A stretch of DNA of 21,239 nucleotides from a virus, in IMG/VR virus record IMGVR_UViG_3300020470_003602, positions 1 to 21,239 of that record. One strand, written 5' to 3'. Numbering within the stretch: position 1 is the stretch's first letter; the number at the start of each line of letters is the position of its first letter. Below, piece after piece: positions 5,763 to 20,228 of this stretch. Both the position numbers and the translations under genes were made by a program. The notes under the pieces are model-generated. The model was not told where the DNA came from and did no database searches. It saw only the letters and a program-made list of their open reading frames with translations.

Positions 5763-7169
5763 ATGTATAATTATAAAACAGAACCGTTCAAACATCAAAG
5801 GCAAGCATTACGTGAAGGTGCAAAAGATTATAACTTTGCATATTTTATGGAGATGGGAACTGGTAAGACCAAAGTAGCCATTGATAATGCAGCTTATTTG
5901 TTTCAAGATAAAAGAGTTGATTTTGCTTTTGTTATTGCACCTAATTCTGTTTATCGTAATTGGTTCAAAGAAATACAAACACATTGTCCTGAAGATTGTA
6001 ATATTTTTATTTGGAAAGTTACTAAAGAAAAAAAATTTAAACTTGATCCTAATAAACTTACATTTGTTTTAATGAATGTTGAGGCACTATCACATGACTC
6101 AGGTAAAAAATGGCTTGAAGATAAGCTTTCAAAGTATGGTATGAGATCTATGATTATTGTAGATGAAAGCACTACTATTAAAAACTTAAAAGCATCTAGA
6201 ACAAAAACAATTGTTAAACTTGGACAATTGGCAAGATATAAAAGAATTCTTACAGGATCTCCTGTTACCAAATCTCCATTAGATTTATTTTCTCAATGCG
6301 CTTTCCTAGATAAAAAACTATTAGGCTATGATAACTTTACCGTGTTTAAATCTAGATATGCTGTGATGTACAATATTGAAAAAGGTGGATACAAGATACA
6401 AATTCCTAAATATTATGTAAACTTAGATGAACTTGAATACAAACTAAAACACTTTTCATATAGAGTTAGAAAAAAAGAATGTCTAGATATACCTGATAAA
6501 ATGTACATACAAAGGCATGTTGATTTATCTGCAGAACAAAACAAAGCTTACCAAGAATTAAAGGTATTGGCCATGGCTAAGATACAAGATGAGAAAGTTT
6601 CTTTTAATAACAAACTTACTGAATTACTTAAATTACAACAAGTAACAAATGGTTTTGTGAAAACTAATGATGATAAAATAGTAGAATTTAAAACTAATCC
6701 TAAACTTAATGAACTCATGAATATATTGGAGGAGACTGAGGACAAGTGTATAATATGGGCCAATTACGTACACAATATAGAAATGATTAAAACTAAACTT
6801 AGGGAGACATATGGCGCAGACTCAGTGGTTTCGATATACGGAAAAGATTCTGTTGAAGTTCGTAACGATGCTGTTGAAACTTTTCAACATAATGATCGAT
6901 GTCGCTTCCTCGTTGGTAATCCTACCGTTGGTGGTTATGGTCTTACCCTTACTGCTGCTAGGCATGTTATATATTTTAGCAATTCTTATAATTTGGAGGT
7001 CCGTTGGCAAAGCGAAGATCGTGCTCATAGGCATGGTCAAACTGGTCAGGTCACAATTGTAGATATCATTGCAAGAGATACTATTGATGAAATGGTTTTA
7101 AATTCTTTAGAAAACAAAATAGAGTTGTCTGCTAAAACCCTGGGAGAGCAAGTTCAGAAGTGGCTTTAA
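5763..7169 (+). CDS. SNF2-type superfamily 2 DNA helicase/translocase
   Basis: A 468-residue SF2 ATPase of the SNF2/RapA type, and the only gene on the plus strand. From ATG 5763 it has the Q-like FKHQRQAL, Walker A MGTGKT (31-36), a DEAH-box variant DEST (134-137), motif III LTGSP (163-167), motif V GYGLTLT (391-397) and motif VI QSEDRAHRHGQ (416-426), the last two being diagnostic of SNF2. No nuclease or HNH domain is fused. In phages such single-domain SNF2 proteins are replication or recombination translocases. The frame is open upstream to a TTG at 5733, but the added ten residues are Lys/Ile rich and the first family-like segment begins after the ATG. Neither start has a clear ribosome binding site. 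Its 3' end runs 38 nt into the convergent methyltransferase gene. Confidence 0.9.
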   Translation: MYNYKTEPFKHQRQALREGAKDYNFAYFMEMGTGKTKVAIDNAAYLFQDKRVDFAFVIAPNSVYRNWFKEIQTHCPEDCNIFIWKVTKEKKFKLDPNKLTFVLMNVEALSHDSGKKWLEDKLSKYGMRSMIIVDESTTIKNLKASRTKTIVKLGQLARYKRILTGSPVTKSPLDLFSQCAFLDKKLLGYDNFTVFKSRYAVMYNIEKGGYKIQIPKYYVNLDELEYKLKHFSYRVRKKECLDIPDKMYIQRHVDLSAEQNKAYQELKVLAMAKIQDEKVSFNNKLTELLKLQQVTNGFVKTNDDKIVEFKTNPKLNELMNILEETEDKCIIWANYVHNIEMIKTKLRETYGADSVVSIYGKDSVEVRNDAVETFQHNDRCRFLVGNPTVGGYGLTLTAARHVIYFSNSYNLEVRWQSEDRAHRHGQTGQVTIVDIIARDTIDEMVLNSLENKIELSAKTLGEQVQKWL

Positions 7170-7605
7170 CTTCTAACGTACATATCGTGTCATTGTGTTG
7201 AGATCCATGATTTACTAATAAAATTTTTTCTATTTCAAAACCATTCTTTTTACCGATACCACCTGAGTTCCAACCAAATGAAATTACCTTACCATTTGGT
7301 TTTATTATTCTAGCTATTTCTTTTTTACAGTTAGACCAATAACTATTATTCATTGGATGATCTAATGATAGACCATTACTATGATACATTTCTTTTAGTT
7401 GACGTTGAGAATATGGTGGATCAAACACAAGACTTAATTTTGAATTAGTTTCAATTTTTTTTAAATATGTAATTGCATCTTCCTTAAATGGATAAGGAAA
7501 AGGATCTATATAATCTGACCCTATATTTTCTTTTATAAATTCTTTAATAGGCTTAATGTCAAACGTTCGATGGTTTGGCATCGCCCAAACTCTTTTTATC
7601 ATCAT
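7132..7605 (-). CDS. Compact adenine-specific DNA methyltransferase-like protein
   Basis: A 157-residue protein with the amino-methyltransferase catalytic motif FDPPYS (DPPY 62-65), followed by SYWSNCKKEIARIIKPNGKV and the segment SFGWNSGGIGKKNGFEIEKI. These are typical of a phage family annotated as adenine (N6) methyltransferases. The N-terminus KRVWAMPNHRTFDIKPI also fits. The SAM-binding motif I is reduced: YIDPF (33-36) is followed directly by PYPFKEDA, without the usual Gly-rich loop, so activity and SAM binding are uncertain. The start overlaps the nuclease gene by 47 nt; a second ATG follows directly. The last residues are antisense to the SNF2 gene. A role in protecting phage DNA from host restriction is plausible; the target site cannot be read. 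Confidence 0.75.
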   Translation of the reverse strand: MMIKRVWAMPNHRTFDIKPIKEFIKENIGSDYIDPFPYPFKEDAITYLKKIETNSKLSLVFDPPYSQRQLKEMYHSNGLSLDHPMNNSYWSNCKKEIARIIKPNGKVISFGWNSGGIGKKNGFEIEKILLVNHGSQHNDTICTLEVKATSELALPGF

Positions 7606-8310: not shown

Positions 8311-8526
8311 TTAATTTAATTTCAATATAAGAGCAACAATTATTCCTATCATGGATGTCATCAAAAAGCCTGTAGATGCTATCATAATCTTTTCAAGCCT
8401 ATGAATATCTTGATGTACGTCATTAATTTTTTTGTTAGTTTCTTCTTGCATAATTCTACATAACTTCTCATGGTCATCAATTCTTTGATGAGCAAGGGTA
8501 TCTTTATTAGATTGTTTTCTTGGCAC
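8311..8526 (-). CDS. Small C-terminal single-helix membrane protein, holin- or XhlA-like candidate (71 aa)
   Basis: A 71-residue protein with a polar N-terminal half able to form a coiled coil (DDHEKLCRIMQEETNKKIND, then VHQDIHRLEKIM) and one hydrophobic helix near the C-terminus (STGFLMTSMIGIIVALIL, 51-68), ending KLN. This architecture recalls XhlA-type phage membrane proteins and some small holins. It could serve lysis, but no endolysin is found beside it and the call rests on topology alone. It starts at a GTG (8526) within the end of the 798-residue virion gene. An AAAGGTGG eight bases upstream, part of the repeated FNKGG-coding element, probably acts as its ribosome binding site. Its place between virion and nuclease genes suits a late-gene end. 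Confidence 0.6.
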   Translation of the reverse strand: MPRKQSNKDTLAHQRIDDHEKLCRIMQEETNKKINDVHQDIHRLEKIMIASTGFLMTSMIGIIVALILKLN

Positions 8527-10903
8527 TTACTATTCCACCTTTATTAAATAAATTTAAGGCTTGTGCTAATTGTGGATTTGATGCACCAATTGGAGTAGCA
8601 CCACCTCCTTGATTAATTACAGGAAAGTTGCCTTGTGAAACATTTGGTAATGGAACTCTTTCTGATTCACTTAATGCACTTGGTTGACCACCCTCTTTTA
8701 TTGCTTCTTCATATAAGTCTAACTGTGCTAGTGCTCTATCTTTTTCATCTTCAGGTATATATCCTTCACTAAACATTCTTCCAATTAATTGTCTCATCAC
8801 TGCTGCAGATTTAGGTGCACTCGGTGCTTTGTAAGAATCAAATATTAATTTTTGAAATTTAGGACTCAATAGACCCTTAGCTAAAAAAGCTGGAGCAGCT
8901 AATACTGTTACGGCAGGTAAAATATTTCCAGTTGCTAAACCAAAACCAGCTCCACCTAATTGTAATAATTGTCCAGCTGCACCTGCTTGTTTTAACTGAA
9001 TAAATACACCACCGGGTAGACCTTTCATTCTTGTTAGATCTCCTTGTGCAAATGCTAATGTTTCAATCATGTTATTTACTTTTTTAAGTTCATCAGCATT
9101 AAATATTTTTTTCATGCTTAAAGCTTGTTTTTCTAATCTAGCTGCGAACGCTTTAGCATCAATGATATTACCAAATTGTGGATCAATTTTTTTGGATGCT
9201 TCTAAAGCTTGATTTAAAAACTGTCCTTTAAAAGCTGTAAGTAAGTCTTCTGATTGTTGTGTAGTTATTTGTCTTACTTTTCCAAATTCATCTGTATACT
9301 TTGTAAATTTAGGTAGTTCTCTAATTTGATTAACTACTTTACCAACTAAATCTGACTTATCTCCTGTTTTAAATACTGCAGCAAAAATGTCTCCAATGTC
9401 ACCAGTATTTTTAATACCTTTTGCTAATACTGCATTTAAACTTCCTCTTTGAAAGATATCCATACCACCTTCATAAAATTCATTAGCTTCTTTTAAAAAT
9501 CTACCCGCTTCTTCACTTAAACCCTTTAATGATTCAGGACTTAACAACTCATCAAATTTATTAAGTAATTGTGTGGCTCCTCCAATACCATCAGAGACTC
9601 CATCTCTTATAAATTTTTGTTTTAATGCAGCTACTTGTGATCTTAATCTACCAGCTTGCGCATAACTTAATTTACCACCTGCTGCTTGTACACCTTCTTC
9701 CATAAATTTATTTTGAAGCTGTCTTAAAATTGGTGTTAGTGGATCAAGTTCTTCAATTCCTTCTTTTGCTTGTCTTTGTAACTTTAACACGGTTTCTTGT
9801 AATCCACCTTTTCCTTCAATAGGTAGAGTAGGTAGGCTTTTAGCATTTTTACCTGATGCTTGAATCAATGCATCATCAACTCTTTTATACATAGCATCTT
9901 TAGCCGCTTTAAACATGTTTTCTGCATCAGTGATTGTTTTAAAAAAATAATTACCTAATGCTTCTTTATCTGTAATTCTTACTCCGTTGTCAGTAATTTG
10001 TTGGAAAGAATTAACTATATCATCTGAAACAAGTTTACCCATCGCTTGTGCAGATCCTCTTCTTCTTTCTAATGCACCACCACCAAATAAAGCTTTTGAT
10101 ACAACATTCTCAATAATATTAATTGTTCTATTTTCAGTCTTAACTCCTGGAGTCAAACCTTTTTGCATTTCCATTGCTTTGTCTTTTAAACTTTGAAATT
10201 GACTTTCAGGAATATTATTTTTCTCCATGAATTCTTTAATAGCTGAATCATCAATTGTTTTTTTAGCTTGCATCTCTACTTGTTCTTTAATTGGTCTAAT
10301 TGCACCATCCGCAGTTTTTGCAATTAAGTTAGCTCCAGCTTTACCATATAAAATTTCATTAGCTTTCATTCGTAAAGTAGTTTCGGCTTCTTCAGCACCT
10401 TCTAATAATTTTGCATACCCTTGAGGTTTACCTAAAATTTTTGAAACGTATTGACCTCCTTTAATTACTATTGGCCCACCAATAAGTTCTGCTGCTGCAC
10501 CTTCAGTTGCAGCTCTAACAACTTCATTTACAACATTTTCTTTTGGGTCAAATGTTTGTGCCACAATAGCACCTGCTCCTCCACCAGCTGCAGCTCCAGC
10601 TGAAGTTTTGAGTAATGCTTTTATAAAAGGTTTAGACAACATACCAATTTTACCCGCAATTCCTGGAAGTCTACTTGCTCCAGTTCCTAAAGCACCAACA
10701 ACAGATAAACCAGCTTCTGTAAGAATTCTTGCAAATGATGGATCGTTTGTATACTTTTCTGTAGCTTCATCAGAAACTGCATCACCTACTAAGTTACTAT
10801 TAATTTCAGATAAAGCCTCTCCAATTTTTTTACTTTCTTCAGCAGTAGGAGTTTCGCCTTCTATGTTTACAACACCAAGACCTTTTACATTAATTTGTCC
10901 CAT
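8507..10903 (-). CDS. Large internal virion / DNA-ejection type protein (798 aa)
   Basis: The largest protein here, probably an inner-core or ejection protein of a short-tailed phage. It has hydrophobic Gly/Ala segments that could insert in membranes (about 60-117, with TSAGAAAGGGAGAIVAQTF, and about 643-680, with GGAGFGLATGNILPAVTVLA), long Lys/Glu-rich helices between them, and no recognised lysozyme or transglycosylase motif. This helical plus amphipathic make-up is typical of podovirus proteins pushed into the host envelope at infection. The C-terminus carries FNKGGI (786-791), shared with two other virion genes. ATG 10903 is preceded by AAGGATT, and the previous gene ends two bases away, so the pair is co-translated. 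The specific role (channel, core, peptidoglycan) is not determinable. Confidence 0.65.
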   Translation of the reverse strand: MGQINVKGLGVVNIEGETPTAEESKKIGEALSEINSNLVGDAVSDEATEKYTNDPSFARILTEAGLSVVGALGTGASRLPGIAGKIGMLSKPFIKALLKTSAGAAAGGGAGAIVAQTFDPKENVVNEVVRAATEGAAAELIGGPIVIKGGQYVSKILGKPQGYAKLLEGAEEAETTLRMKANEILYGKAGANLIAKTADGAIRPIKEQVEMQAKKTIDDSAIKEFMEKNNIPESQFQSLKDKAMEMQKGLTPGVKTENRTINIIENVVSKALFGGGALERRRGSAQAMGKLVSDDIVNSFQQITDNGVRITDKEALGNYFFKTITDAENMFKAAKDAMYKRVDDALIQASGKNAKSLPTLPIEGKGGLQETVLKLQRQAKEGIEELDPLTPILRQLQNKFMEEGVQAAGGKLSYAQAGRLRSQVAALKQKFIRDGVSDGIGGATQLLNKFDELLSPESLKGLSEEAGRFLKEANEFYEGGMDIFQRGSLNAVLAKGIKNTGDIGDIFAAVFKTGDKSDLVGKVVNQIRELPKFTKYTDEFGKVRQITTQQSEDLLTAFKGQFLNQALEASKKIDPQFGNIIDAKAFAARLEKQALSMKKIFNADELKKVNNMIETLAFAQGDLTRMKGLPGGVFIQLKQAGAAGQLLQLGGAGFGLATGNILPAVTVLAAPAFLAKGLLSPKFQKLIFDSYKAPSAPKSAAVMRQLIGRMFSEGYIPEDEKDRALAQLDLYEEAIKEGGQPSALSESERVPLPNVSQGNFPVINQGGGATPIGASNPQLAQALNLFNKGGIVSAKKTI
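8535..8549 (-). repeat. FNKGG-coding 15-bp element, copy 1
   Basis: On the minus strand this reads ATTTAATAAAGGTGG, encoding Phe-Asn-Lys-Gly-Gly near the end of the 798-residue protein. Identical 15-mers occur at 11728-11742 and 13418-13432. This copy also supplies an AAAGGTGG that may be the ribosome binding site of the 71-residue gene. Confidence 0.7.
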
Positions 10904-10904
10904 G

Positions 10905-11807
10905 CTAATCCTTTACTAAGTTACCTGACTCATCAAAAGAATAAAAGTCTAAGCTTTGATCATATGTTATATCTTGTGCGTTAATACCAAATTTAGTGAA
11001 TGCTGAACTATAATAGTCTACAGTATTAGGATCTACTACAACACCGCCAGCACCTAGTCTGTCATCTAATTGTTGAATTTTATTTTTTGCAACTTTAATT
11101 TTTTCAACAATTACATTTTCAGGATCGTTTATTGATGGCAAGATAGCGTTGAAACTAGCTTCCTCTAAAGGACCGACTTGTGCACCCCTTAGTGCAGCAA
11201 TAGCTTCTTTTCTAAATGTTTCTAGTTTTGTGTTGAAGTTTGCAGCTTTAGGATTCATACCAAGTGCAGCAGTTGCTTTTGCAATACGACCAGCTACAGG
11301 ACCAGAACTCGCACCTTCTTGAATATCTCTTAAAATATCATCAGCTGCACTTAATGTAGTATATCTTTTACCAGCTTTTTCTCTTTCACCAAAAGTAGGT
11401 TTATCTTTAATATCAACAACCTCTCCATCTTTTACTTTTACAATTAATCTATCTTTTACATTATATCCAAGAGATGCTTTTTCAGCATCAGTTGCAGCTC
11501 TAATACTTTCTGTGCTTTTTTTATTTTTTTGTTTTTCTTCTTGTATTGCGATTAAAGTAGATGGTAATTTTTCTGCACCTTGACCAACTGCTCTAAGAAC
11601 ACCACTCAATGCGCTTTCACCTTGTCTTTGTGTTGACTGTAACAAAGGCGCAGCAAAGGTTGCTGCGATAATAGCTTTTTCTCTAGATGACATCCCACCT
11701 TCTTGAAAATGTTGAATGTTAGCAATACCACCTTTATTAAATGCTTTAGGCTTATGCATTTTAAAATATCTATCTCTAAACATTTTTCTTGTTAATACTT
11801 TTTCCAT
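10905..11807 (-). CDS. Putative virion protein with N-terminal double GG motif (300 aa)
   Basis: A 300-residue protein without a recognised enzyme motif. It opens with a basic segment, LTRKMFRDRYFKMHKPKAF, followed by FNKGGI (23-28) and FQEGGM (34-39), then an Ala-rich hydrophobic stretch (about 45-58). A long charged helical region and an alpha/beta C-terminus ending in SFDESGNLVKD follow. The beginning looks like that of several marine phage structural proteins, from memory and not from a search. It lies between the Gln/Ala-rich protein (one base away) and the 798-residue protein (overlapping signals, two bases away), so it belongs to the ejection or tail block. AGG five bases before ATG 11807 serves as a weak ribosome binding site. 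The function is unknown; a partner or chaperone of the large core protein is one possibility. Confidence 0.6.
   Translation of the reverse strand: MEKVLTRKMFRDRYFKMHKPKAFNKGGIANIQHFQEGGMSSREKAIIAATFAAPLLQSTQRQGESALSGVLRAVGQGAEKLPSTLIAIQEEKQKNKKSTESIRAATDAEKASLGYNVKDRLIVKVKDGEVVDIKDKPTFGEREKAGKRYTTLSAADDILRDIQEGASSGPVAGRIAKATAALGMNPKAANFNTKLETFRKEAIAALRGAQVGPLEEASFNAILPSINDPENVIVEKIKVAKNKIQQLDDRLGAGGVVVDPNTVDYYSSAFTKFGINAQDITYDQSLDFYSFDESGNLVKD
11728..11742 (-). repeat. FNKGG-coding 15-bp element, copy 2
   Basis: Minus-strand ATTTAATAAAGGTGG would read with the same codons as at 8535-8549 and 13418-13432, except that the base before the Phe codon belongs to an Ala codon here. It encodes FNKGG at residues 23-27 of the 300-residue protein. 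Confidence 0.7.
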
Positions 11808-11808
11808 A

Positions 11809-12672
11809 TTACCTCGGCTGCATTAAGTTATATGTAGAGTAAGCACCTAAGCCAGCACCAAGAGCTTGTCCTAAAGGATTTGCACCGGGAGCCGTGGAGG
11901 CTGTAATTGTGCTCTGTGTAGTAGGTAAGTTAGTCATTATACCTTTTAAGAATTCTATTCTTTGGAATGGTTCATATGCTCTTTGTAAAGCAGTCTGTCT
12001 TTGTGCTTCTAATTGCTGTTGACCAATTCCTCTTTGAACTGCACCAGCTTGAAGTTGCGCTTGAATATCTGCAAGAGACATAGCTTGTTGTTGTTGCCCC
12101 ATTCTACCTAAAGCTTGTCCTGCTGCAAGTTGAGTTCCACTAACTAAATTTTGTTGTTGTTGCGCAGCTCCTAATGCAGTTTGAAATCCTTGTGCTTGAG
12201 CTTGGCCAATCTGAGAAAGTCTAGCTCGTTCTAATTCTGCTTGAGCTATACCTTGTCTGCCACCACCAAAAGCTCCTGAAGCAACTGCTTGTGCACCTAA
12301 TTGATTTTGTGCCATTTGTGATTGTCTATTTATTTCATCAGTTACATAAGATTGATATGGATTAAAAAATTGTGAAATGTTTGGTCCAGCTGCAGCAGTT
12401 TGTTGTGCACCTAATAAGGATCCGATACCAGCTCCAACAGTTGGAGCACCCACTCCTGTTTGACCAGCTTGTGTAATTGCAGCTTGTTCAATTCCAGATA
12501 ATGGTGCTACTTGTATAGTAGGTAAATTTACAGGGCTAGATGCTAGTCTTGCCGCTTCATCATATAACGAAAGTTTTCTTGACTCTACTCCAGGTGCTTC
12601 TCTTTGCGTAACTGTTGATTGTCCAGTTGATGTTGGAGCACTAGATCCTCCTCCTCCAAAAATAAAACTCAT
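11809..12672 (-). CDS. Gln/Ala-rich internal virion protein (287 aa)
   Basis: A 287-residue low-complexity protein rich in Gln, Ala and Gly, with an extended N-terminus (GGGGSSAPTSTGQS) and long helices containing QQQQ runs (171-174, 193-196). Two segments, FFNPYQSYV (102-110) and GAFGGGRQ (133-140), have the look of conserved elements of phage internal virion or DNA-transfer proteins. The C-terminus GAGLGAYSTYNLM may be membrane-active. No enzyme motif is present. An AAGGAG eight bases upstream of ATG 12672 is a good ribosome binding site, and the start overlaps the preceding stop in a TAATG. Its composition, unlike that of neighbouring enzymes, fits a flexible ejection protein packed in the capsid. 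The assignment to virion is strong by context; the exact part is not known. Confidence 0.65.
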   Translation of the reverse strand: MSFIFGGGGSSAPTSTGQSTVTQREAPGVESRKLSLYDEAARLASSPVNLPTIQVAPLSGIEQAAITQAGQTGVGAPTVGAGIGSLLGAQQTAAAGPNISQFFNPYQSYVTDEINRQSQMAQNQLGAQAVASGAFGGGRQGIAQAELERARLSQIGQAQAQGFQTALGAAQQQQNLVSGTQLAAGQALGRMGQQQQAMSLADIQAQLQAGAVQRGIGQQQLEAQRQTALQRAYEPFQRIEFLKGIMTNLPTTQSTITASTAPGANPLGQALGAGLGAYSTYNLMQPR

Positions 12673-13133
12673 TATTTAATCTCCTTAGTATATAAATATC
12701 TTTTTACATCCCAACCTTTTGTTTTTAAAAAAGGTTGCCATCCCGGTCTTGCATGAACAGCTATTCTTTTGCAACCAGTTTCTTTAGCAAGTTTTTCAAT
12801 TGTGTTTGCTAATTCATCTTGCCATAATTCTCTTTTCTCTCCCTTTAATAGAATGACTTCACATTGTTTAAAATTAGGAAGCACCATAATTCTTGTTACA
12901 CAAACACCAAATACTTTATAACCTTTAGCATCATCTGAACCAAACATCATATATAATTGCATTGATCCTTCTTTAATACATTTTTTTAAATCCTCTATAG
13001 ACATAGGATCTCCATCATATTTTAAACCCTCTCTAAGCATAAAATCACATAGATCCCAATAAGTGTCTAATGTTTGTGAGTAGATCTCTAAAACCTCTAC
13101 ACCTTTTTTTATTTTAATTTTGTTTGCTTGCAT
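12672..13133 (-). CDS. GNAT-like acetyltransferase-fold protein in the virion block (153 aa)
   Basis: A 153-residue alpha/beta protein whose second half resembles the GNAT fold: strands GYKVFGVCVTRIMVLPN and QCEVILLKG, a helix with DELANTIEKLAKETGCKRI, and the ending HARPGWQPFLKTKGWDVKRY, which looks like the last GNAT strand and C-terminal helix. The acetyl-CoA loop (R/Q-x-x-G-x-G/A) is not clear, so it may be a structural relative and not an enzyme. Similar GNAT-like proteins sit beside core-protein genes in T7-like phages, which fits this location between two virion genes. The start overlaps the upstream gene by 20 nt without a Shine-Dalgarno, and the stop overlaps the next start in TAATG. 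Confidence 0.55.
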   Translation of the reverse strand: MQANKIKIKKGVEVLEIYSQTLDTYWDLCDFMLREGLKYDGDPMSIEDLKKCIKEGSMQLYMMFGSDDAKGYKVFGVCVTRIMVLPNFKQCEVILLKGEKRELWQDELANTIEKLAKETGCKRIAVHARPGWQPFLKTKGWDVKRYLYTKEIK

Positions 13134-14022
13134 TTGTTATATCGTAAATTCTTTTAAATTGTTTTTGTTGATTGTAAAAAAAATCTGCACCAGCTTTTCT
13201 CATACCCTTAAAATTTTTCGGATCTGCACCTGATAAAATACCAGCTCCTAAAACAGCATCAGCTCGTGATACAAATTCTCCATCAGCTAATTGAGCTAAC
13301 ATAGTATCTTCATCTTTATCTCCAGCACCAGCTCCATCTTCAACATAACCAGTAGCCCTCACATAATTGTTTACATCATTTTCATCATGATCAACTTTAG
13401 ATGGTAAATAGTTTACACCACCTTTATTAAATTTATTTATTGCAGTTGCTAATCCACCTTGATTAGCATAAAACATATTTGATCCAGTCACCTCAGCCAT
13501 AGTTGGTTTAGCTACAGCTGTATCTACTGGTTCAAATTTACCTTTTAATTTTGCTGATTGTTCTTTGTAAGCTTGTTTATAATCTTCTTCTGTAAACATA
13601 GGTTTTACTGGTTCCTCATCGCCCATTAAAAAAGGCGCAATAGTTGAAGCTGCAACTAATTTTGTTCCTGTATCTGCACCTAAAATTCCTGATCCTTTTG
13701 CTGCAGCTTTAGCAGCTTCACCTTCTAAGCCAGCTGCTTTTATTTGTTCAGCTGTCATCTTTTTTTCACCTATTATTTTTTTTAAAAAATTTGAATCACC
13801 GCCCATTCCAGGAATACTACTGAAAGGAGAACCTCTACCTATGTTTCCAAAAAAACCTTGTCCTGCTTGCGCAGCTGAACCAAAAGCTCCAGCTTTTGAA
13901 AGTGCCCCTATACCGAATGCAGACCCTCCGATAAGTGCAGCATCTTTTAACGCTGTTCTAGTTGATTTTCCTCTTAGTTTCTGTACGCCAAATGTGGCTA
14001 ATGCAAGTGTAAATGGATCCAT
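13114..14022 (-). CDS. Virion protein with tape-measure-like GG and DGEFV motifs (302 aa)
   Basis: A 302-residue protein that begins with a Gly/Ala-rich hydrophobic part (about 25-60) and an Ala-rich linker. Residues 185-203 hold two GG motifs, ANQGGLA and KFNKGGV. Next comes GYVEDGAGAGD (225-235) and LADGEFVSRADAVLGAG (245-261), a variant of the KGG ... GxGxGD ... MLxxGEFV signature seen at the ends of tape-measure and related phage tail proteins. The C-terminal helix includes FKGMRKAGADFFYNQQ. At this size it is too short for a siphovirus tape measure, so an internal or tail-tube scaffold role in a podovirus is more likely. ATG 14022 has a distant AGGG; a promoter-like sequence lies upstream at 14048-14076. 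Confidence 0.65.
   Translation of the reverse strand: MDPFTLALATFGVQKLRGKSTRTALKDAALIGGSAFGIGALSKAGAFGSAAQAGQGFFGNIGRGSPFSSIPGMGGDSNFLKKIIGEKKMTAEQIKAAGLEGEAAKAAAKGSGILGADTGTKLVAASTIAPFLMGDEEPVKPMFTEEDYKQAYKEQSAKLKGKFEPVDTAVAKPTMAEVTGSNMFYANQGGLATAINKFNKGGVNYLPSKVDHDENDVNNYVRATGYVEDGAGAGDKDEDTMLAQLADGEFVSRADAVLGAGILSGADPKNFKGMRKAGADFFYNQQKQFKRIYDITNASKQN
13418..13432 (-). repeat. FNKGG-coding 15-bp element, copy 3
   Basis: Third identical ATTTAATAAAGGTGG on the minus strand, coding FNKGG at residues 198-202 of the 302-residue protein. The other copies are at 8535-8549 and 11728-11742. Confidence 0.7.
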
Positions 14023-16047: not shown

Positions 16048-16108
16048 AATTATTTTTTATTATATACAAACTATTTAGTCAAGTTTGTTTCTTTATTATA
16101 GTTTGTAT
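16048..16108 (-). promoter_or_regulatory. Intergenic inverted repeats with a TATAAT box
   Basis: The short gap between the carbamoyltransferase and the 65-residue gene holds a perfect TATAAT on the minus strand (16064-16059), preceded by TTGACT but with only 12 bases between, so a standard promoter is doubtful. A 10-bp inverted repeat, ATACAAACTA (16064-16073) and TAGTTTGTAT (16099-16108), flanks it. A nested 7-bp hairpin, ACAAACT/AGTTTGT, lies at 16066-16088. The site may be an operator, a weak hairpin or chance in AT-rich DNA. Confidence 0.3.
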
Positions 16109-17446
16109 TTCAGGAAAGTAAATATACTGAAGATTACTATTTTCAAACATAATTTTTAAATCATATAATGTTTCTACTAAAACTTCTCCAGGTAAATTTA
16201 AACTCGTATTTACTATAATCGGTAAATTAGTTAATTTATAAAAAGATTTTATTAAGTTATAATAATGAAGATTATTTTTATCAGATACAGTCTGTATTCT
16301 AGAATGATTATCTACTGAAATACCAGCTTTAAGTATACCTAATTTTCTTAATTTGAAAACAAACATCATATATGGCGATTCATCAATTGACATATCAAAC
16401 CAATCTTTCGCTTTTTCTTTTAGTATTGAACATGCAAAAGGTCTAAACCATTCTCTTTTTTTTATTGAATTTAATAAACTATGTGCATCATCATGTGAAG
16501 GATTCATTAATAAAGATCTATTTCCTAAACCCCTTTGTCCTTGTTCACTACGAGATTGAAATATAGCTATTGGATTATTTATTAAAATTTTACTAACTTC
16601 CTCATAAGTACATTTATTTATTTTGTGTTTAAGAAATAAATCAGTATTTATTTTTTGTGGTATACCTAAATATATATTATTGTTTTTAATATTATTATTT
16701 GTAAAATAATTTGCTGCACCTAAGCTTATACCAAAATCCCCATTAAATGGGTCACAAAAAACATTATTAAATTTTTTAAGTAACTTTGAATTGTATAAAA
16801 TGTTTTGAGCACAACCTCCAGAGAATAATACTTCTTTTTCTATATTAAATTCTCTTACAATATTATCCATTCTATTTTCAAATTGAGTTTGAATTTTTTT
16901 TGGTCTTTCATCATATAAACTCCAAGCCATTGTTTTACCACAGTCATGAGAGGACTGAAAATATTTTTGTGTAAAAGACTCATAATCAGATCCTATGGTT
17001 GGAGCTTCATTTTTTGTATAAGTCTTTATATGATTTAATTTGCCATCATATTTAAATAAGGATTCTCTTTCAAAATCATCTTTAATTTTTTTACCTCTAC
17101 CATCAACTATTAAAATGTTTTTTATTTTTTTATTCCAAGTCAGTGAACAATAAGCATGAAATAAATGATGATGTTCTTGTCCGTAAATTAAAAATTTTTT
17201 ATCTTTTAAATTAGGTAAAGTTAGTAAAAATTCTCTCCAAACTAAAGCAGAATTATTTTCATTTAAAAAAGTAATTAAAACTAAATCTATTTCAATTGAT
17301 TTGATAATATCTAAAAAAGCTTTTGAAGGAACAGTTGTGTTTTTAAATCTATTATATCTATCTAATTGCGTATGAAAAATAATTTCATTGTCTTTAATAT
17401 AAGTCGCACAACCTTCATGCGATAAATGAAGCGATAAAATATACAC
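16079..17446 (-). CDS. O-carbamoyltransferase, NodU/CmcH/TobZ family (455 aa)
   Basis: The protein should transfer a carbamoyl group from carbamoyl phosphate, through a carbamoyl-adenylate, to a hydroxyl acceptor. The Kae1-like N-domain shows the metal-binding HxxxH in GQEHHHLFHAYCS (H93, H97), VDGRG (114-118) and the nucleotide loop LFSGGCAQNILYN (207-219), with GDFGISLGAA (236-245). The C-domain has QSRSEQGQRGLGNRSLL (297-313), a variant of GRxExGPRALGNRS, then WFRPFACSIL and NTSLNLPGE (413-421). It is shorter than NodU (about 570) but keeps all core motifs. The start is a GTG overlapping the 42-residue gene stop (TAGTG). The gene is strikingly AT-rich (36 G/C in 180 bases at 16561-16740) and Asn/Lys/Ile rich, suggesting separate acquisition. 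Acceptors could be a glycan, a metabolite or a modified base. Confidence 0.88.
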   Translation of the reverse strand: MYILSLHLSHEGCATYIKDNEIIFHTQLDRYNRFKNTTVPSKAFLDIIKSIEIDLVLITFLNENNSALVWREFLLTLPNLKDKKFLIYGQEHHHLFHAYCSLTWNKKIKNILIVDGRGKKIKDDFERESLFKYDGKLNHIKTYTKNEAPTIGSDYESFTQKYFQSSHDCGKTMAWSLYDERPKKIQTQFENRMDNIVREFNIEKEVLFSGGCAQNILYNSKLLKKFNNVFCDPFNGDFGISLGAANYFTNNNIKNNNIYLGIPQKINTDLFLKHKINKCTYEEVSKILINNPIAIFQSRSEQGQRGLGNRSLLMNPSHDDAHSLLNSIKKREWFRPFACSILKEKAKDWFDMSIDESPYMMFVFKLRKLGILKAGISVDNHSRIQTVSDKNNLHYYNLIKSFYKLTNLPIIVNTSLNLPGEVLVETLYDLKIMFENSNLQYIYFPEIQTIIKKQT

Positions 17447-17917: not shown

Positions 17918-18078
17918 GATAAAAAGTAATTAAATGCATCTTGTTCATTTTTTAGTTCTTGTTGATAAGAAGTGTTTAACTTATCTTTCATAGTTTGTAA
18001 AGATTGTGAAACTTGTCTTTGATTTTCTTCTGAATAAACAGGAGATGGTTCAGGTATTATGACATCTACTCTAGCCAT
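17914..18078 (-). CDS. Small helical protein (54 aa) coupled to the tail protein
   Basis: A 54-residue ORF on the minus strand opening MARVDVIIPEPSPVYSEENQ and continuing with helical RQVSQSLQTMKDKLNTSYQQ, ending NYFLS. It is probably real: the start forms TAATG with the stop of the 716-residue gene, and the stop forms ATGA with the start of the 116-residue gene. Such unbroken stop-start overlaps are unlikely to be chance. The long amphipathic helix suggests a protein-binding or oligomerisation element, perhaps a tail connector or assembly factor. I recall similar MARVDV-type small proteins in marine phages but no function for them. Confidence 0.75.
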   Translation of the reverse strand: MARVDVIIPEPSPVYSEENQRQVSQSLQTMKDKLNTSYQQELKNEQDAFNYFLS

Positions 18079-20228
18079 TATCTCATTCCATCTGGTTGAA
18101 CGTCTGCCCTAAATGTTCCAAATCTCCAATTTTCATCCGTTGTAGTATTTGCAATTTTAATTGAAGCAAATCTTGATCTAGCTCTTGTGTCTACTTTTTC
18201 AGTTGTGCTTGAAACAGTAAAAGGTCCGAGAGGCGAGGATGTTTCAGTGTTTGAAGGAAATCTTCTTAAATTAATTGTAACTTGTGCATTACCAGTTAAT
18301 AATTTAAAATCTGGTATAAACCTTCTTATACTCATAAATAGCTGAGCATTACCTTCTACATTTAAACTAAAGTCTCCTGATTCAATAAATGCTGGTATAG
18401 CTGTTTTTGCTCCTGTTGAATCAACTTGGTTGTTTCCGACTTCATGCGCATAGTAAGTCGAAGCTCCATTTACATTTGTTACACCTTGTATAGTTGGAAA
18501 ATTAGGAACACCTGTTGAATTAAATTCTGTAGCATACGGATTATCATAAAGAGTTGAATCTTGCCATGAAGTCCTTGATAAAGAGCCTGTCACCCATGTG
18601 TTTTCAATATAGTTAAATGTTACTACTCTATCGACATTTGATGAACCGTGTTTAGGATAGAACCAACTTACTTCTTCATATAAATGATTTAAGCCAGCGT
18701 AAATTTGTTCACCTGACGAATAATTAATACCAAGATTATCTCCTTTATTTGTAAATACAAAATCTTCAACTTCACATGGTACTGATTTGACTGTACCATC
18801 ATAAACAAAAAATCCACCTGCTTGTCCCATCCACCAAACTCTTCCGTTAACATACTTAATAGCGTGTTGGCCTATTAAACCACAATTACTTCCGACTTGC
18901 CTAATTGAGAACGTAAACGGTGGGCCAACAAATTGCATTACGTAAGCAGAGGTATCAGTAAGAATTAAAATGTAGTCTTTTGCTTTAGCTGCACCGACTA
19001 TTTTTACACCTGAATCTAATCTAAAAGTTCCCGCAGTATTTGTTGATGTTGGCGAATAATCTGAAATACTTTCTTGATCAGAAAACCTTATAAACATAGG
19101 ATCTTGAGTTGAGTTTGTGCCAATAGTTGTTTCAGTTCCTAATATAATTAAATGTCTATCTCTCTCAGAAACAATTGACATGATAGATTTTGTTGGAGCA
19201 TTGCTTACTGCCGTTGCTCTCGTAGTTAATGCATTTGGTTGTGAGTGAATAGGATCCCATTCAAAAGTTTTACCATTTTTAATTGTAGCAATTAGTTTTT
19301 CTCCAAAATGGTCTAATGACCACGAAGCTGGATCTAATATTACAGAAGAAGATAATGATTGAGAGCCCCAACCAGTAAAGACTTCTACAGATGCGCCACT
19401 TGAATGAGCAGATCTTGTTCCAGCTACTGCTCTAGTTATTCCTGTTAAATCGTTTCCTGATAATCCAGTGTATGAAATAAATTCTGCCCCAACTTTAATC
19501 GTTCCTGTATTTGGAAAACCAATAGTGGACGATAAAGTAATTGATGTGCCTGATCCTCCTGTACCCGCAGTATCATCTTGTAATAAACCATTTAAAGTTG
19601 AAACTATTCCTGATGCTCCACCCCAAGATGCGGTGCCCCATCCATAACCTGCTGACTGATTCAATGGCCCTACTTTTATGTAAGGTTCAATAGTTGCAGA
19701 TCCGCTTGCAGCTACTGTTGTTTGAGCATTTGCTGCCATTGTTATTGTAAATGTATCAGCATCAGGAACTGATACAACTTGAAAAGTATTTGTTTCAAAA
19801 TCAGAGGCTACATATCCAGCACCAGTTGGAGGAGTTACCGAAGTAAATATAAATAAATCTCCTTCTACTAAACCATGCGCAACTTTGTTTACCGTAACTG
19901 TTGGAAAAGTGTTTTGTGTTGTAAACGTGGCTCCAGTTATAGCTGTATCCAAAGGAGTTATATCATAGAAAGCTCCTTCATAATAAATTAATAAAACTCT
20001 ATTTGTACCTAAAGCTGCATATCTTCTACCGTCTAAATCAGCCCAAACTAGTTGCTCTCTTACAGCTCCAACTAAAGTGCTAGATGTAATTTGTTCCCAT
20101 CCACCGATTTTTTCAGGAAGTCCGTATCTAAATCTTACAAAGTCTCCATCTGTCCATTGACCCTCAGCACCCGTTTGAGTTACTTGCTTATTAAATCCTG
20201 GACGTATTTTTACATTTGTTAAAGGCAT
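18078..20228 (-). CDS. Tail / packaged-DNA stabilisation protein, P22 gp10-like (716 aa)
   Basis: A 716-residue late structural protein. The N-terminus RPGFNKQVTQTGAEGQWTDG with FVRFRYGLPEKIGGW (30-44) is the opening seen in gp10-like tail accessory or head-completion proteins, which form a beta-propeller ring beneath the portal. Inserted beta modules include VNKVAHGLVEGDLFIFT (about 113-130) and TIKVGAEFISYTGLSGNDL, both typical of phage tail proteins. Later segments VWWMGQAGGFFVYDG and WVTGSLSRTSW fit propeller blades. ATG 20228 has no Shine-Dalgarno, but a promoter-like sequence ends five bases upstream. If real, it lets the gene start a new, leaderless transcript. The stop overlaps the 54-residue gene. 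Tail tube or fibre base proteins are the alternatives. Confidence 0.65.
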   Translation of the reverse strand: MPLTNVKIRPGFNKQVTQTGAEGQWTDGDFVRFRYGLPEKIGGWEQITSSTLVGAVREQLVWADLDGRRYAALGTNRVLLIYYEGAFYDITPLDTAITGATFTTQNTFPTVTVNKVAHGLVEGDLFIFTSVTPPTGAGYVASDFETNTFQVVSVPDADTFTITMAANAQTTVAASGSATIEPYIKVGPLNQSAGYGWGTASWGGASGIVSTLNGLLQDDTAGTGGSGTSITLSSTIGFPNTGTIKVGAEFISYTGLSGNDLTGITRAVAGTRSAHSSGASVEVFTGWGSQSLSSSVILDPASWSLDHFGEKLIATIKNGKTFEWDPIHSQPNALTTRATAVSNAPTKSIMSIVSERDRHLIILGTETTIGTNSTQDPMFIRFSDQESISDYSPTSTNTAGTFRLDSGVKIVGAAKAKDYILILTDTSAYVMQFVGPPFTFSIRQVGSNCGLIGQHAIKYVNGRVWWMGQAGGFFVYDGTVKSVPCEVEDFVFTNKGDNLGINYSSGEQIYAGLNHLYEEVSWFYPKHGSSNVDRVVTFNYIENTWVTGSLSRTSWQDSTLYDNPYATEFNSTGVPNFPTIQGVTNVNGASTYYAHEVGNNQVDSTGAKTAIPAFIESGDFSLNVEGNAQLFMSIRRFIPDFKLLTGNAQVTINLRRFPSNTETSSPLGPFTVSSTTEKVDTRARSRFASIKIANTTTDENWRFGTFRADVQPDGMR

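Follow-up and report, generated by a model that had tools for sequence, protein, structure and literature searches.

The window analysed here, the 21,239 bases of IMG/VR virus record IMGVR_UViG_3300020470_003602, carries three exact copies of a 15-bp element, ATTTAATAAAGGTGG, all on the minus strand and all translated in frame as Phe-Asn-Lys-Gly-Gly (FNKGG) followed by Ile, Ile and Val. Copy 1 (8535-8549) lies near the C-terminus of a 798-residue protein (8507-10903, minus), where FNKGG and its Ile are residues 786-791; copy 2 (11728-11742) lies near the N-terminus of a 300-residue protein (10905-11807, minus; FNKGG and Ile at residues 23-28); and copy 3 (13418-13432) lies in the interior of a 302-residue protein (13114-14022, minus; FNKGG and Val at residues 198-203). 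The preliminary description of this DNA had reported the three copies, their shared frame, their positions in three otherwise unrelated proteins and adjoining Gly-Gly motifs, and all of this holds: the carriers are unrelated by sequence, a second tag, FQEGGM, follows copy 2 by 11 residues (11691-11708, minus), and ANQGGLA neighbours copy 3 (13447-13467, minus). The element is the only 15-mer with at least three copies in the window, where nine others occur twice, and three matches were reached in none of 100 dinucleotide shuffles of the window. When the proteins of 16 open reading frames (ORFs) were shuffled with their composition preserved, three FNKGG were reached in 0/5000 shuffles (mean 0.0076), and the five occurrences of the looser pattern [FY]xxGG[ILMV] in the window ORFs were reached in 1/5000. 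A further candidate, FYEGGM at 9461-9478 in the 798-residue protein, was rejected as probably unrelated, its GG not being conserved in relatives. We propose that FNKGG is a protein-level linear motif, one form of [F/Y/L/M]-x-x-G-G-[I/V/M/L/R], that putatively docks the proteins of an ejection block on a common partner, an explanation that we hold with about even confidence.

The window comes from a marine bacterial virus, a P22-like pelagiphage, and among cultured phages its nearest match is Pelagibacter phage HTVC023P (MN698239). Comparison with the latter suggests that the carriers belong to a P22-like ejection-protein block. The synteny anchor is a 716-residue protein in the slot of P22 gp10 ('stabilization' protein; 18078-20228, minus; phrog_3287, E 7.6e-86), after which the window and HTVC023P (gp72 to gp83) both show, by position, the order gp7, gp20, gp16. 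Among the ejection slots, only gp7 has a family match: its 287-residue protein (11809-12672, minus), which has no FNKGG, matches the PHROG 'DNA ejection protein' phrog_4287 (E 1.6e-8). The 300-residue protein occupies the gp20 slot and is a putative ejection protein by synteny with HTVC023P gp82; the 798-residue protein occupies the gp16 slot and is a putative ejection or DNA transfer protein by synteny with HTVC023P gp83 and with the 'DNA transfer protein' of phage DSL-LC04, and it gave no PHROG match at E 0.01 and only a sub-threshold Pfam match. The 302-residue protein is the proposed free-standing FxxGG...GEFV protein of the block, a designation explained below. Because direct similarity to P22 is unconvincing (BLASTP E 0.43 between the gp7-slot protein and P22 gp7, and nothing convincing between the gp10-slot protein and P22 gp10), these roles are assigned from synteny. 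The preliminary description had called the carriers virion genes; their placement among such genes stands on synteny and on the family matches of their neighbours, and from it we infer their presence in the virion. On the same grounds, the three tagged proteins probably enter the host ahead of the DNA. Excerpts of the literature describe HTVC023P-type phages as widespread and podoviral (PMC9599517) and review the ejection proteins of model podophages (PMC8954989).

We found that FNKGG is kept among relatives as protein, not as DNA. When 25 relative loci were searched with the regular expression [FY]N.GG, a count that rows such as the FKEGGL of HTVC023P fall outside, the exact 15-mer was present in 5/10 rows of the gp16 slot, 13/20 of the gp20 slot and 3/21 of the 302-residue slot, and the peptide frame was kept despite free codon drift (AAT/AAC, AAA/AAG, GGT/GGA/GGG) and tolerated substitutions (Y for F; Q, E, S, T or R for K). 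At the third site, most close relatives have YN(Q/E)GG. HTVC023P has peptides of this kind at all three places in other codons, FNRGGI in the gp16 slot, FKEGGL in the gp20 slot and FNQGGV in the 302-residue slot, in proteins that are ~24%, 32% (residues 1-238) and ~61% identical to those of the window; its gp16-slot protein, at ~24% identity, ends in LFNRGGIADVRRK. These synonymous changes bear directly on a second suggestion of the preliminary description, that the 15-bp sequence has a role at the DNA level or was recently copied. Three exact copies are what such an origin would leave, and the end of the gp16-slot gene does recombine: between locus L021 (10867-13422) and the window (8427-10903) the gp16-slot proteins are ~25% identical, while the last 54 nt of the genes are 98% identical. 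From the codon frequencies of the window, however, one FNKGG would take this spelling with P 0.26 and three would agree on some one spelling with P 0.03, and none of 18 relative loci (several of them partial) has more than two exact copies, so that the 15-bp identity is not the signal. A DNA-level element or recent copying is already contradicted by these observations, and we give it hardly any weight.

Alignments made non-redundant (12 of 18 rows for the gp16 slot, 12 of 23 for the gp20 slot and 19 of 24 for the 302-residue slot) show the Gly-Gly to be invariant at all three sites, and by conservation the five-residue motif window ranks in about the top 1.4% for both the gp16- and the gp20-slot proteins. 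At the C-terminus of the 798-residue protein, the motif is part of the peptide NLFNKGGIVSAKKTI with its basic tail (8510-8554, minus); nine of the 12 rows extend as far as this C-terminus, and in all nine G, G and I are invariant. The gp16-slot row of L074 lacks the F. The identical C-terminal peptide of L021 was rejected as independent conservation, since it sits in the recombined stretch, and the near-identity of that locus continues downstream of the gp16-slot gene. As for the adjoining motifs, the GG of ANQGGLA is invariant in 19/19 non-redundant rows, and FQEGGM is lost in HTVC023P and L017 and altered in L057.

Predicted structures place the motif in segments that may be flexible. AlphaFold2 returned a poor model of the 302-residue protein, with a predicted local distance difference test (pLDDT) score of 45 and residues 177-254 below 50, and a partial model of the 300-residue protein with pLDDT 64, in which residues 14-39 fall below 50 and much of the body reaches 70-86; a Foldseek search with the latter found nothing with an E value of 0.001 or less. 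Strong conservation where model confidence is low is what a linear motif would show, while falling short of proof. FNKGG is short, conserved, recurrent in unrelated proteins and located where low pLDDT suggests disorder, and to that extent the results support the earlier proposal of a shared short linear motif: relatives retain the peptide at each of the three places, it falls in low-confidence stretches of both modelled proteins, and unrelated viral proteins contain it as well.

The motif is wider than FNKGG, being FxxGG-like, and it is clade-limited. A motif-blind test drew on relatives fetched with the gp10-slot profile only; of 598 such relatives the best 80, and hence the closer ones, were used. 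Around the gp10 slot, [FY]xxGG[ILMV] occurred, after redundancy reduction, 30 times in 52,867 residues downstream and once in 79,023 residues upstream. A GEFV-type protein in the 302-residue slot was present in 24/80 loci, and within these 24 a broader tag class gave 79 occurrences versus 21 for the reversed pattern, counts that were not de-duplicated. Slots in the blind loci were set by regular expressions, and some gp16-slot ORFs look truncated or misassigned; with that proviso, the gp16-slot tag was found in only 1/12 blind loci and is therefore clade-specific. Among other phages, a 145-residue protein of HTVC010P ends with LRIGGV, and HMO-2011 has FDEGGL in gp49 and MAKGGM in gp25.

To follow the motif into other viral proteins, viral contigs were scanned for the codons of FNKGG[I/M] (at least 119 stretches, with 118 contigs analysed for families and 80 loci for contexts) and for the codon-permuted control NFKGG[I/M], a complete set of 101 stretches of which 80 were analysed; ORF calling differed slightly between the sets (start-to-stop versus stop-to-stop), and all figures for FNKGG refer to the matches listed. 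FNKGG[I/M] occurred in at least 40 BLAST families (94 ascertained IMG/VR ORFs). It lay within 40 residues of the C-terminus in 16/40 families versus 2/27 for the control (Fisher P 0.004), and in many cases a basic tail came after it. Two or more tags were present in 18/40 FNKGG families and any tag in 4/27 control families (P 0.016); GEFV-like elements, in 9/40 versus 2/27, did not differ significantly (Fisher P 0.18). PHROG searches covered 36 of the 40 FNKGG representatives and 27 of the 27 control representatives. Fourteen of the 36 matched named families, all of them tail, head/virion or lysis-type (tape measure in seven cases, and internal virion protein, virion structural protein, baseplate hub, tail fibre-like protein and endolysin/transglycosylase), four matched unknown families only and 18 matched none. 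Fourteen of the 27 control representatives were also named, eight as virion, terminase or lysis-type (with two terminases counted there) and six as helicase, thymidylate synthase, cytidyltransferase, epimerase, regulator or holin-like protein (the last, L168, counted here with its weak tape-measure match); one matched an unknown family only and 12 matched none. Other ORFs of the FNKGG contigs showed only a weak excess of [FY]xxGG[ILMV] (16 versus 6 reversed). The scan also brought up a family of ~112-residue proteins ending in FNKGG(I/M)AR(G/A)CGAV...KRK.T (L140, L038, L041 and similar; at least 11 members), whose N-terminal 45 residues match phrog_27331, of unknown function.

Several of the FNKGG contexts read FxxGG...DTVPAMLTPGEFV, and we therefore scanned with the GEFV part alone. 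This motif-blind scan yielded at least 120 stretches; 118 loci were analysed, with 129 in-frame sites, 65 of them non-redundant, and counts rest on 61 sites after removal of the 4/65 that lacked a full 45 residues upstream, the proteins not being individually annotated. Among the matches listed, the 45 residues before GEFV held [FYLMW]xxGG[ILMVFYA] at 30/61 sites versus 3/61 for the reversed pattern (binomial P 1e-6) and [FY]xxGG at 36 versus 13 (P 0.001). The same arrangement exists in the tape-measure protein gpH of phage lambda, with FATGGF at 733, GEFV at 754-757 and YATGGY at 778, all included in the region that NCBIfam TIGR01541 covers (472-813). In the window, the 302-residue protein has FNKGGV and, about 50 residues away, DEDTMLAQLADGEFV, where the module pattern would place the tag within 45 residues of (D/T)(V/I)PA.L...E(F)V; the stretch DEDTMLAQLADGEFVSRADAV (13252-13314, minus) resembles the GEFV element that is paired with FxxGG elsewhere. 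Homologues in the 302-residue slot match tape-measure PHROGs at the GEFV stretch (best E 3e-4 for HTVC027P, 7e-6 for 023Pt_psg01 and 6e-9 for DSL-LC04). The 302-residue protein is probably a free-standing relative of the tape-measure C-terminal module. The DSL-LC04 protein of this slot (L025 18138-20417, annotated as tape measure, 759 residues) has four copies of SAQGTLGGPSYAGMDL at 17-residue spacing.

Searches with the window protein itself speak less clearly for this kinship. It gave no PHROG match at E 0.01, no Pfam or NCBIfam match (TIGR01541 included) and no match among solved structures, where the best hit was a ribosomal protein at E 0.5; its HTVC023P homologue has no tape-measure PHROG match at the GEFV stretch. 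Profile comparison between 302-residue and tape-measure proteins aligned 25 columns at 48-52% identity with an hhalign P of ~0.002 and a probability of 12-16%, and comparison of lambda gpH with the 302-residue protein gave no match. Among solved structures, L079 weakly matched the tape-measure chain 8zdo (E 0.002, best single-stretch i-Evalue 1.4) and L072 matched none. That the 302-residue protein is a tape-measure protein in its own right was rejected on account of its 302 residues and of the P22-like, short-tail synteny. The pairing with GEFV brings in the main rival to docking, in which FxxGG would belong, as a turn or hinge, to an old C-terminal module of tape-measure proteins. The 302-residue protein would descend from that module, and the tags of the gp20 and gp16 slots would be left as relics or serve as flexible Gly-Gly joints. 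Co-occurrence of the two elements in the motif-blind sample and in gpH, together with the PHROG matches of the 302-slot homologues, points this way; yet the gp20- and gp16-slot tags have no recognised GEFV partner and are nonetheless among the best conserved residues of their proteins, and some small proteins unrelated to these have C-terminal tags as well. We regard homology without docking as possible but rather doubtful.

The N-terminus of the gp20-slot protein carries a further signature. In the window it reads RKMFR (residues 7-11; 11775-11789, minus), with 11 residues between it and the FNKGG at residues 23-27, and in distant relatives it takes the form RPMFR-GG. R(P/K/S)(M/L)F(R/K) was present in the first 20 residues of 20/20 gp20-slot proteins (15 from blind loci and five others), the bodies of which, after residue 50, form seven groups without BLAST similarity at E 1e-3; [FYLM]-x(1,2)-GG was present in the first 45 residues in 11/15 blind loci. 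A scan for RPMFR in one spelling gave at least 120 stretches, with 117 sites analysed. Among the matches listed, these held 107 ORFs of at least 80 residues, of which 105 have GG directly after the signature (RPMFRxGG, which contains F-x-x-G-G or a close variant of it), the following GG alone being informative as the F is fixed by the search pattern; the bodies form eight groups, two of which hold 94 of the 100 ORFs of at least 150 residues. It is possible that R(P/K/S)(M/L)F(R/K), mostly as RPMFR-GG, is an N-terminal targeting peptide of gp20-slot proteins.

Docking remains the reading we consider most likely, and a number of results weigh against it. The partner is hypothetical, and the AlphaFold2 models rest on shallow alignments. 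In the 302-residue protein, the motif window reaches only the 65th percentile of conservation and its flanks are equally conserved; moreover, seven alignment rows (L029, L037, L054, L057, L074, L088 and L094) had been picked up by the scan for FNKGG and lean towards the motif, and 7 of the 25 loci in the 15-mer count have that origin too, to the advantage of the exact form. Around the gp10 slot, position and direction are both biased, direction only modestly (30 forward versus 17 reversed downstream), and the reversed pattern, too, is commoner downstream than upstream (17 versus 4). With any next residue allowed, [FY]xxGG gave 72 versus 48 reversed downstream and 73 versus 56 upstream. The single gp16-slot tag among the 12 blind loci belongs here too, as do the ejection proteins of other phages: P22 gp7, gp20 and gp16 and the HTVC011P ejection proteins have no [FY]xxGG[ILMV], and those of P-SSP7 have a single one, FMNGGL in gp16. 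FxxGG[ILMV] showed no enrichment (7 versus 8 reversed) among general viral proteins that were retrieved with the permuted pattern, and tape-measure matches, in 7/36 FNKGG versus 3/27 control representatives (one of them weak), did not separate the sets. The lack of general enrichment and the modest direction bias would suit chance convergence in AT-rich, glycine-rich proteins, but conservation over deep divergence, the absence of three FNKGG from 5000 shuffles and the 30-to-3 bias before GEFV already contradict chance, to which we assign very little probability.

If FNKGG is a docking motif, the three tags, at the C-terminus of the gp16-slot protein, at the N-terminus of the gp20-slot protein and before the GEFV element of the 302-residue protein, would present flexible segments through which these proteins could dock during assembly onto a putative common partner, such as the portal, a scaffold, the core or a dedicated chaperone. 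Common docking would then allow joint loading and exit ahead of the DNA. The preliminary description had also mentioned processing, and a viral or host protease could cut after Gly-Gly during maturation or ejection. This rival is weaker than the inherited hinge. Excerpts of PMC10038345 place the cut of the T5 tape-measure protein after Arg, at R1127; an M15 peptidase is the only annotated peptidase in the HTVC023P record, most genes of which are hypothetical; and a cut at the gp16-slot site would take off only eight residues. The literature on the gpH cut site gave only the timing of the cut. We consider processing improbable. It is tempting to extend docking to a broader view, in which FxxGG would be a portable 'ejection tag' for proteins that leave through the portal or tail before the DNA, common to long-tailed tape-measure proteins and short-tailed marine ejection proteins and read by one conserved vertex or chaperone receptor; the 302-residue protein would then act as the tip module of a tape measure in a phage that has no long tail, and RPMFR-GG of the gp20 slot would be the tag in N-terminal form, attached to interchangeable bodies. 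We think this extension unlikely, and the outcome of the PHROG searches with the control set makes us hold it slightly less likely still.

Other genes of the window were noted as well. A 153-residue protein is also encoded downstream of the gp10 slot, and the corresponding slot in CRP-902 and DB virus 2 holds an acetyltransferase. Within the late block, 16079-17446 (minus) encodes a Nol-like carbamoyltransferase (Pfam Carbam_trans_C, E 1.2e-44), near an ORF whose positional counterpart in HTVC023P is annotated as a glycosyltransferase. A 71-residue ORF with a GTG start (8311-8526, minus) overlaps the end of the gp16-slot gene and has a hydrophobic C-terminal segment, and a 157-residue ORF with a DPPY motif (7132-7605, minus) may encode an adenine methyltransferase.

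Except in a few model phages, little is understood of how internal proteins are selected for packaging and then leave ahead of the DNA. If our proposal is true, a peptide that tape-measure proteins have in common with ejection proteins would be a mechanistic link between long- and short-tailed phages and would mark ejected proteins in sequence; many of these proteins are called 'hypothetical' in the marine phage records consulted. No paper with FNKGG or with any of six GEFV-type or five RPMFR-type strings was found among the open-access papers searched; subscription journals lay mostly outside this search, so that the motif may already be published.

Among known systems, the P22 proteins gp7, gp20 and gp16 are the closest in arrangement: the order after the gp10-slot protein is the same, phrog_4287 occupies the gp7 slot and the gp16-slot protein of DSL-LC04 is annotated as a DNA transfer protein, although the gp7- and gp10-slot proteins have no convincing similarity to those of P22 and the P22 ejection proteins are without the tag. 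The C-terminal region of lambda-type tape-measure proteins is the closest in motif, with FxxGG shortly before GEFV and a further YxxGG after it; excerpts of PMC10721106 describe the C-terminus of gpH (818-842) as a coiled coil in the tail tip. Unlike lambda, the window phage is P22-like and short-tailed, the pair in its 302-residue protein has the wider gap of about 50 residues, two further proteins carry the FxxGG half only, and TIGR01541 misses the window protein. Double-glycine cleavage sites, such as those of adenain, of JAMM/deubiquitinase-type proteases and of bacteriocin leader peptidases, have a hydrophobic residue a few positions before Gly-Gly, a feature that FxxGG may be said to share. 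In capsid-targeting peptides such as the T4 capsid-targeting sequence, a short terminal peptide sends different proteins into the head. The tags described here differ from it in sequence and in lying at both ends and in the middle of their proteins, but their putative way of working would be alike.

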